Shown piece by piece: positions 21,540-24,633 of a DNA stretch of 64,000 bases. How positions within the stretch are numbered: position 1 is the first letter of the stretch; each line of letters begins with the position of its first letter. The stretch is from Collinsella tanakaei YIT 12063 (GTDB taxonomy: Bacteria; Actinomycetota; Coriobacteriia; Coriobacteriales; Coriobacteriaceae). Where the stretch lies: NCBI RefSeq assembly GCF_000225705.1, contig NZ_JH126468.1, forward strand, positions 1 through 64,000. The letters run 5' to 3'. Both the position numbers and the translations under genes were made by a program. The notes under the pieces were generated by a model. The model ran no database searches. It saw only the letters and a program-made list of their open reading frames with translations, and was not told the origin of the DNA.

Positions 21540-22202
21540 CTACTCCTTGAACAGGTAGCCCACGCCGCGAACCGTGGTGATATGCGCGGCGATCTGCGGG
21601 CCGATCTTGGAGCGAATGCGACGAATGTGCACGTCAACCGTGCGCGTACCGCCGCAATACTCAAAGCCCCATACGCGATGCAACAGCACCTCGCGGCTAT
21701 AAGCACGGTTGGGGTGCGTGGCCAAGAAAGATAGCAACGAGTACTCCATCAGCGTGAGGTCGACCGGCTCATCGTCCAGATACACCTGATACGTAGCAAG
21801 GTTGATGGTCATGCCGTCAACGGTGAGGATATCATCGCCCGCAAACGGGTCCTCCTCGCCCATAAGGCGACGGGCGCGGATCTCGAGCTCAAGCTCCGTA
21901 GCGCCAGAACAGATGAAGTCGACGCGTGCGCGGGAGGGAATGCGCAGGCTCGCCAGCGCGTCCTCGTCCGCGATCAGCAGCATGGGAATGCTGCCGCGCC
22001 CGTCCAACCACTTGGCGATATGGTCCAGGCGATCGTTGCGCAAGCCGTCCACATCAAGGATCAGCAAATCGAAATCATGGGTGGCGTTGGGCGAATCCGG
22101 CGTTGCCGCGTACACCTCTACACCCATGGTAGAGGTCAGGGTCCGGGCAAAGTCATGGAAACGCGTAGTACGCGCCATAAAGAGTACGTTCTTCTCGGAC
22201 AT
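21540..22202 (-). CDS. GlnR-like atypical OmpR-family response regulator
   Basis: 220 residues. The C-terminal winged helix contains DLTLMEYSLLSFLA, then GGTRTVDVHIRRIRSKIG and TTVRGVGYLF, very close to the DNA-binding domain of actinobacterial GlnR. The N-terminal receiver domain is atypical: it lacks the acidic pair after the first strand (VLFMARTT), keeps one Asp (LILDVDG), and lacks the usual Thr/Ser and Lys. This matches phosphorylation-independent GlnR proteins. Start at 22202 is set by GGGAGG. It is just downstream of the glutamine synthetase homologue, separated by a terminator. Role in nitrogen control is inferred from domain similarity and neighbourhood. Confidence 0.85.
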   Translation of the reverse strand: MSEKNVLFMARTTRFHDFARTLTSTMGVEVYAATPDSPNATHDFDLLILDVDGLRNDRLDHIAKWLDGRGSIPMLLIADEDALASLRIPSRARVDFICSGATELELEIRARRLMGEEDPFAGDDILTVDGMTINLATYQVYLDDEPVDLTLMEYSLLSFLATHPNRAYSREVLLHRVWGFEYCGGTRTVDVHIRRIRSKIGPQIAAHITTVRGVGYLFKE

Positions 22203-22332
22203 TCGCACCTCCCTTTTTAGTGACATGATAACAAGAACCGCTGGTAGATATATGCGCTATCAGCAGTCATTTTTATTTTTATGTAAAAAACTTTCACTCG
22301 CGGCGCGAACGGGGCGCCGTTTCGAATAAAAG

Positions 22333-22362
22333 GGGCCGCACCGCATCAAAACGACGCGGCCC
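22333..22362 (-). terminator. Intrinsic terminator of the glutamine synthetase homologue
   Basis: GGGCCGC (22333-22339) pairs with GCGGCCC (22356-22362); on the minus strand CCTTTTATT follows. Confidence 0.75.
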
Positions 22363-22393: not shown

Positions 22394-23734
22394 CTACGAG
22401 TTAGCCAGGTAGTGCTTGATCTCCCACTCGGTGATGGTGGACGAGTACTTCTCCCATTCGCCGCGCTTCTTCTTAAGGAAGAACCCGTGGATGTGCTCGC
22501 CCAGCGTCTCGCGCATAAAGTCGGAGTTCTCGAAGTAGTCGAGCGCCTCGGCAAGGCTGCGGGGCAGCGGCTGGATGCCATGGCGGCGCAGCTCGGCGTC
22601 GCTCAGGCTGGTGAGCGCGCTGGTCGCCTCCTCCGGCAGGGTGAGGCCGCGCTTGATGCCGTCGAGGCCCGCCGCCAGCGTCACCGCGTTGGTGAGATAG
22701 GGATTGGCCATGGGATCGGGCGTGCGCAGCTCGATACGGCTTGACTGGTGCTTGCCCGGCTTATAGATGGGGATACGGATCATCGCGGAGCGGTTGCGCA
22801 GACCCCAGCTTGCGCAGGTGGGAACAGAGCCGCCACCGGTGACCAGTCGCTTGTAGGAGTTCACCGTGGGGTTGGTGATCGCGGAGATCTCGTTGGCATG
22901 GGCCAAGATACCGGCCATGTAGCTCTTGGCAATGGGCGACAGGTGGTACTCGGGGTCATCCTCGCCCCAAAACACGTTGTTGCCGCTCTTATCGAACAGC
23001 GACTGGTGCAGGAACATGGCGCTGGAAGGCTCCTTGGCGATGGGTTTGGGCATGAAGGATGCGTGGATGCCCGCCTCGAAGGCCTCTAGGCGAATAACGT
23101 GCTTGGCGGTCATGATGGCATCGGACATGGAAAGCGCCTCTGCATGGCGAAGCGAGATACCGTGCTGCGAGCGACCGGAAGAATGGAAGGTGTACTCCAC
23201 CGGCACGCTCATCTTCTCGAGCATGAGAACGGTGGAGCGACGCAGGTCGCGCGCGGAATCGGATGGAGTGAGGTCGAAATAGCGAACATCGTCCAGAGGC
23301 TCGGGCGTGGACTCGTCCGGGAAGTAGTAGAACTCGAGCTCGGTGCCCACGTTCATGATGTAACCGTCTTTTTCGGCCTTCTTGAACATACGGCGCAGGC
23401 ACTCGCGCGGATCACCGGCAAACGGCTTGCGGTCCGGCGTGCACACGTCGCAGAAGATGCAGGCGACGCCGTCATGGCTAGGGCGCCAAGGCAGGACCTG
23501 GAACGTGGAGGGATCGGGGAACGCGAGCATATCGGACTCGTCGGGCGTGGTAAAGCCCTCGATAGCCGAGCCGTCGAAACCGATGCCCTCCTCGAATGCA
23601 ACCTCGAGGTCCTCCGGGGCGATTGCGAAGCTCTTAAGCCTACCGAGAACATCGGTAAACCAAAGGCGAACGAAGCGAATATCGCGTTCCTCGACTGTGC
23701 GGAGCACGAAGTCGATGTTCTGCTGCAGGTCCAT
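22394..23734 (-). CDS. Glutamine synthetase homologue (GlnA2-like) lacking key catalytic residues
   Basis: 446 residues, full length for type I glutamine synthetase and closest in pattern to actinobacterial GlnA2 (FVRLWFTDVLG, GIGFDGSAIEGF, MPKP, NPTVNSYKRL, NRSAMIRIP are all present). Some active-site residues are conserved: Glu132, Glu134, Arg296, Glu335, Arg337. Others are replaced. The HHE-x6-E metal-ligand segment reads FHSSGRSQHG (Ser185 and Gly192 instead of two Glu), the metal-ligand His in the AMH motif is Phe241 (AMFLH), and the flap Glu of GGEAP is Ser303 (GGSVP). Ligation of ammonia to glutamate therefore seems unlikely. Start at 23734 with AAAGGG six bases upstream. Neighbour of a GlnR-like regulator. 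Confidence 0.9.
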   Translation of the reverse strand: MDLQQNIDFVLRTVEERDIRFVRLWFTDVLGRLKSFAIAPEDLEVAFEEGIGFDGSAIEGFTTPDESDMLAFPDPSTFQVLPWRPSHDGVACIFCDVCTPDRKPFAGDPRECLRRMFKKAEKDGYIMNVGTELEFYYFPDESTPEPLDDVRYFDLTPSDSARDLRRSTVLMLEKMSVPVEYTFHSSGRSQHGISLRHAEALSMSDAIMTAKHVIRLEAFEAGIHASFMPKPIAKEPSSAMFLHQSLFDKSGNNVFWGEDDPEYHLSPIAKSYMAGILAHANEISAITNPTVNSYKRLVTGGGSVPTCASWGLRNRSAMIRIPIYKPGKHQSSRIELRTPDPMANPYLTNAVTLAAGLDGIKRGLTLPEEATSALTSLSDAELRRHGIQPLPRSLAEALDYFENSDFMRETLGEHIHGFFLKKKRGEWEKYSSTITEWEIKHYLANS

Positions 23735-23854
23735 GGGAAGCCCTTTCACGCTTAAATCCCAACATATAGCTTTTTATATTTGCATAGCTATGTTTCCACT
23801 GAGTTACCTGTGGTTGCGGCGCCCCCAACATTGATGCTCCCCCTAAACAGTCGA

Positions 23855-23970: not shown

Positions 23971-24555
23971 CTAAATCCCCAGGTAGGACATAATGCCGGT
24001 GACAGCGCGGTTAGCGCCGGCCACAGCATGAACCACCGTCGAGGGACCGCTCACCACATCGCCCGCCGCGAAGACGCCGGACATCATGGTCATGCCGCTC
24101 TCGTCCACCTCAAGCAGGCCGCGATCATTGGCGACCAGGGCGTCGGTTGTGAGGACCAGCTTGTCCTTTGCCTGCTGGGAGGCGGCGATCACCACGGTAT
24201 CGCAGCTTACGTGGCCGAGCTCGTCCTCATAGCCAACAACGGCGTCCTCCTCATCGAAGATGGCGGTACGGAACACCGGGCCGTTGTCGTCGATCTCTTG
24301 GACCGCCTTGCCGTACACCAGCTCCGCTCCGTCCAACTGGGCGAACTCGACCTTGTCCGAGCTAGCGGAGACATGCTTGGAGCGAGCATAGATGGTGACG
24401 TTGCGAGCGCCCTGGCGAAGCGCGGTGCGCGCCACGTCCATGGCAACGTTGCCGGCGCCAATGACCGCGACGCGCTTGCCGCAACTGGGAGCCGGCGCAA
24501 ACTCATGGCGCTCCAGGTAGGTGGTCGAGATATAGTGCTCGATGTTAGAGAAGCT
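23971..24555 (-). pseudogene. gltD-like FAD oxidoreductase, 5'-truncated remnant
   Basis: The frame is open from about 24555 and encodes the C-terminal half of a glutamate-synthase-small-subunit-like pyridine nucleotide oxidoreductase: the NAD(P)-binding motif VAVIGAGNVAMDVART is followed by the FAD-binding GVFAAGDVVSGPSTVV segment. An in-frame stop (minus-strand TAG, 24556-24558) blocks any further upstream extension. The N-terminal Fe-S region and first FAD motif are missing, and no start signal is present except an internal ATG after the dinucleotide motif. A deletion at about 24556 brought it next to the uxaA terminator. Confidence 0.85.
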
Positions 24556-24594
24556 CTACAATATGAACTCCCATACCAATTCGCTCCTATCAAC

Positions 24595-24633
24595 TATGCC
24601 CGCGACATCAAGCGATTCGATGCCGCGGGCATA
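24595..24633 (-). terminator. Hairpin downstream of uxaA
   Basis: TATGCCCGCG (24595-24604) pairs perfectly with CGCGGGCATA (24624-24633). It is 24 bases past the uxaA stop; no strong T-run follows. Confidence 0.55.

Follow-up and report, generated by a model that had tools for sequence, protein, structure and literature searches.

In Bacillus and Paenibacillus, glutamine synthetase (GS) GlnA acts as a trigger enzyme for the nitrogen regulators GlnR or TnrA (PMC9249791). There GS is an active enzyme encoded together with a nitrogen regulator, its conformational state informs the regulator, and the signal is glutamine feedback through R62 and the flap Glu. GlnR and TnrA are small MerR-family proteins with a GS-binding C-tail. 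A second type of control is found in Methanosarcina mazei GlnA1 and Methanothermococcus GS, active enzymes that are activated by 2-oxoglutarate (2-OG) (PMC11957540, PMC10799026). The GlnR of actinomycetes is an orphan regulator of the OmpR family with an atypical receiver (PMC10704036; PDB 8hig, 8hih, 8hml), and the signal that reaches it is described as unknown (PMC10704036). Here we describe a GS homologue of Collinsella tanakaei YIT 12063 that has lost residues needed for catalysis and lies beside a GlnR-like gene. It shares the I-alpha fold with the Bacillus-type enzymes and, among solved structures, is closest to the methanogen enzymes, but lacks metal ligands, the feedback Arg and the flap Glu, and its neighbour is an OmpR-family GlnR without a GS-binding C-tail. 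GS as a regulator is known; no description of an inactive GS or of a GS-GlnR pair in Coriobacteriia was found in the literature searched.

A glutamine synthetase homologue without its metal ligands

We analysed a 64,000-nucleotide stretch (the window; NZ_JH126468.1, positions 1 to 64,000). The gene starts at an ATG at 23734, preceded by AAAGGG, and ends with a stop codon at 22394-22396, giving 446 aa, although a GTG 15 bp upstream is also possible. A Pfam search found both GS domains (Gln-synt_C 350 bits, Gln-synt_N 95 bits). The nearest named genomes are Collinsella and Enorma, the best being Collinsella sp. BA40 (90% identity). To locate the active-site residues we aligned the protein with solved GS, which placed the following features (codon coordinates computed from the ATG, Salmonella or M. 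mazei numbering for the reference residues):

22394..23734, minus strand: pseudo-GS gene (446 aa), type I-alpha fold, with n1 metal ligands E212 and E220, n2 ligand H269 and flap E327 missing
23180..23182, minus strand: codon of Ser185 in place of n1 metal ligand E212
23159..23161, minus strand: codon of Gly192 in place of n1 metal ligand E220
23012..23014, minus strand: codon of Phe241 in place of n2 metal ligand H269
22826..22828, minus strand: codon of Ser303 in place of flap E327
23630..23674, minus strand: F21, R23 and S35, one protomer's side of the 2-OG pocket (M. mazei F24, R26, S38)
23483..23485, minus strand: R84, 2-OG pocket Arg (M. mazei R87), absent from Bacillus-type GS
23189..23242, minus strand: R165, R166 and T182, the other protomer's side of the 2-OG pocket (M. 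mazei R172, R173, S189)

The four substitutions, as well as the retention of E132, E134, E335 and the Arg residues, are as stated in the original prediction. Its description of the protein as GlnA2-type is loose, since the nearest solved structures are archaeal I-alpha enzymes, M. mazei first. Three more changes accompany the four: the first His of the HHE motif is F183, the glutamine-feedback Arg (M. mazei R66, B. subtilis R62) is T63, and S53 is A57. The protein scored 406 against NCBIfam TIGR00653, below the cut-off of 429, while an active relative scored 451. AlphaFold2 predicted a full GS fold (mean pLDDT 85, with the stretch 293-300 beside the flap low), nearest to M. mazei GS (Z about 50, rmsd 2.2 over 428 residues). 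Foldseek and VIA-align listed only GS relatives among the top matches. A remote sequence hit was to lengsin (2j9i), a vertebrate GS-like lens protein.

We next asked whether nearby residues could supply the missing ligands in a still-active enzyme. No acidic residue lies in 183-192, and H271 is variable, which argues against replacement ligands. The flap Glu and E129 are also drifting in some lineages that keep the other ligands, but we consider a still-active GS very unlikely. An enzyme with a different, perhaps metal-independent or kinase-like, reaction that uses the conserved arginine pocket is not excluded: the active-site arginines, D50, E131 and E357 are retained, and 13 columns are newly conserved in the clade. 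This reading is doubtful, however, as E212, E220 and H269 are all gone while characterised GS-like ligases seem to keep the metal-ligand set, and no substrate-pathway gene neighbours the gene in Coriobacteriaceae.

The loss has a single origin and the gene is under strong purifying selection

To determine how widespread the loss is, we examined homologues from Coriobacteriaceae (f1, identified by its named members), from sister families of the same order (f2 and f3, presumably Atopobiaceae and Eggerthellaceae as inferred from size and position), from families f4 and f5, and from other lineages of the class (deep lineages). E212, E220 and H269 were gone in every one of 48 f1 and 45 f2 sequences, so that chance or a sequencing error can be ruled out. 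E212 is mostly Ser or Ala, E220 is Gly, Ala, Cys, Val or Ser, and H269 is mostly Phe. In f3, f4, f5 and the deep lineages these ligands are kept in 47-48 of 48 sequences. f1 and f2 form one clade with SH-aLRT 100, so one loss event suffices. The flap Glu is lost in f1 but kept in 35 of 45 f2, and E129 is Lys in 28 of 45 f2 but kept in most f1, so the metal ligands E212, E220 and H269 went first. We further noticed that some f3 and f5 sequences have lost a single ligand or the flap Glu, including loci L140, L143 and L153 (f3) and L152 (f5), in which a metal ligand is lost (E129 to Ala, E357 to Val or Asp). This looks like a parallel start of the same process.

To test whether the gene is a relic, we computed pairwise dN/dS. 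Values in the pseudo-GS clade were 0.02-0.11, the same as or lower than the 0.09-0.12 of active f3 genes, although dS is near saturation in two f2 pairs. The number of columns at least 95% conserved was 145 in the pseudo-GS clade and 148 in the active set. Together with the single fixed origin, the dN/dS values exclude decay.

A second type of enzyme is available to make glutamine. GSIII (PF12437) was found in all 54 f1 and 79 f2 genomes sampled, in nearly all of f3, and almost never in the deep lineages. The C. tanakaei genome (2.49 Mb, 20 contigs) holds this GS and two GSIII-type genes, the first of which aligns over its whole length with Bacteroides GSIII 3o6x and keeps the motifs NEVAP and GSGKHNN. 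Acquisition of GSIII thus fits as the event that freed GSI. As the sole type I GS found in these abundant gut and mucosal bacteria is probably not an enzyme, metabolic models built on that annotation would be wrong. The presence of GSIII in all genomes of the clade could also point to an inactive subunit that controls or stabilizes GSIII directly. We regard this as very unlikely: GSIII is about 700 aa with a different architecture, in the window genome it lies on another contig next to glutamate synthase while the pseudo-GS stays with the regulator, and f3 genomes have GSIII together with an intact GSI.

Pairing with a GlnR-like regulator and a GlnR box

Directly downstream of the pseudo-GS lies an OmpR-family gene, and the region carries the following elements:

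21540..22226, minus strand: GlnR-like OmpR-family regulator (228 aa) with atypical receiver domain
22333..22362, minus strand: intrinsic-terminator-like hairpin (12 pairs, 9 G-C) between the two genes
23792..23807, minus strand: GlnR box GTAAC-TCAGTG-GAAAC, starting 73 bp before the ATG

The nearest solved relatives of the regulator are the GlnR structures 8hig and 8hih, and its DNA-binding domain matches that of Saccharopolyspora erythraea GlnR with 47% identity. In our reading its receiver lacks the acidic pair and the Lys of a normal receiver. The pairing holds class-wide. The gene is next to GS in f1, f3 and deep lineages, whereas in most f2 genomes it is 3-5 kb downstream on the same strand. 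In one f2 locus (L146, 1582-5693) the genes between are those of a polar amino-acid ABC transporter (binding protein, permease, ATPase), and several other f2 loci have similar spacing. Of 215 genomes of the order, the 8 that lack this GS all lack the GlnR-like gene; G096 and G250 (family f2) have lost both. Three more lack only the regulator, of which two have just a remote GS-like hit. Counting those two as lacking GSI, 204 genomes have both genes, 10 have neither and 1 is discordant (Fisher p 2e-16, not corrected for shared ancestry). In the window, the hairpin suggests that the regulator may be expressed from its own promoter or by read-through, unlike the tight spacing (6-58 bp) in several f3 genomes.

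The box upstream of the pseudo-GS gene matches the actinomycete GlnR box gTnAC-n6-GaAAC (PMC10704036). To test its specificity, we searched upstream regions with different gap lengths. With the gap of 6 the motif was found in 24 of 24 f1, 33 of 38 f2, 15 of 29 f3 and 15 of 16 deep upstream regions, against at most 7 for any other gap tested, while shuffled upstreams gave under one per group. An exact box search of the genome gave 8 hits against 17 for the reversed control, and thus no genome-wide excess. Two of the eight lie just upstream of an amino-acid-binding protein and of O-acetylhomoserine sulfhydrylase, which we treat as leads only. Boxes at GSIII genes of other genomes were only weakly found (5 of 20 against 0.6 expected). 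In the C. tanakaei genome, two head-to-head boxes related to the GlnR box lie between glutamate synthase and the divergent second GSIII gene (locus L164, 7707-14605); most Collinsella have only one GSIII hit. No Rfam match to a riboswitch was found in the region.

The residues of the 2-oxoglutarate pocket are retained

We then tested whether the residues of known GS effector sites are kept. In M. mazei GS, 2-OG sits between subunits on F24, R26, S38, R87, R172', R173' and S189' (PMC11957540), and bulky or acidic residues at the positions of A40 and V93 would block it (PMC10799026). The window protein has F21, R23, S35, A37, R84, V90, R165, R166 and T182, identical in the ligand residues except for Thr at S189. 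Among 62 non-redundant pseudo-GS, F24, R26, S38, R87, R172 and R173 are kept in 56-62 and S/T at S189 in 61, while A40 is A or S and V93 mostly V or A. By contrast, the second GS copies of deep lineages, which do not sit next to the regulator, have His, mostly Thr, and Lys or Ser at R26, S38 and R173, and Paenibacillus GS has Val at R87 and Glu at A40. Retention of the pocket is supporting evidence and not proof, because 97 of 119 near-invariant columns are kept in the pseudo-GS clade anyway. In addition, one f2 genus (five genomes, L144-L148, 1.5-1.7 Mb) has altered pocket residues (F24 to Tyr, R173 to Tyr, R87 to Glu or Lys) although the GlnR-like gene is kept.

Alternatively, the protein could be a regulatory partner of the GlnR-like protein that senses something other than 2-OG, such as glutamine, ATP/ADP or a phosphorylated compound in the old active-site pocket. 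Pairing and co-loss hold whatever the ligand, the active-site arginines (R321, R339, R344, R359), E131 and E357 are almost invariant in the clade, so that some ligand chemistry may survive, and the five genomes with a damaged 2-OG pocket keep the pair. This seems unlikely, since glutamine feedback in known GS needs the D50-loop Arg and the flap Glu, of which the Arg is lost in nearly all pseudo-GS and the flap Glu in f1, whereas the 2-OG pocket is otherwise kept.

The original prediction of a pseudoenzyme or an enzyme with another reaction, perhaps a nitrogen sensor tied to the neighbouring GlnR-like gene, is supported by all the indirect tests we could run. With moderate confidence, we favour a former GS kept as a dedicated nitrogen-status sensor for the GlnR-like transcription factor, with GSIII making the glutamine. 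In this model the pseudo-GS should still assemble into the ring-shaped GS oligomer. 2-OG, which builds up when nitrogen is short, would bind between neighbouring subunits and shift the N-terminal domain and D50 loop, as in methanogen GS. The two conformations would then differ in how they bind the GlnR-like protein through its degenerate receiver domain, setting its activity at GlnR boxes, including the one in front of the pseudo-GS gene. The absence of GS activity, 2-OG binding, physical contact and the direction of control are inferred here from sequence, without binding, structure or expression data. How GlnR-type regulators learn the nitrogen state is described as unknown (PMC10704036), and a partnership kept after the apparent loss of catalysis would separate the regulatory from the enzymatic role of GS. 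It is possible, though tentative, that the pseudo-GS is a non-catalytic 2-OG receptor directly controlling an OmpR-type GlnR without PII or a sensor kinase, and that its still-catalytic forerunner in the rest of the class would be the long-sought input of this branch of GlnR regulators.

We also noted that PII is present in the C. tanakaei genome next to amtB, but is missing in at least 19 f1 genomes and in several f2 genomes. The pseudo-GS and regulator persist in those of them that were searched for both. Finally, upstream of the pseudo-GS, at window positions 23971-24600 on the minus strand, lies what looks like the C-terminal half of a pyridine-nucleotide-disulphide oxidoreductase (156 aa ORF, Pyr_redox_2 from profile position 156 on), apparently truncated at its N-terminus.
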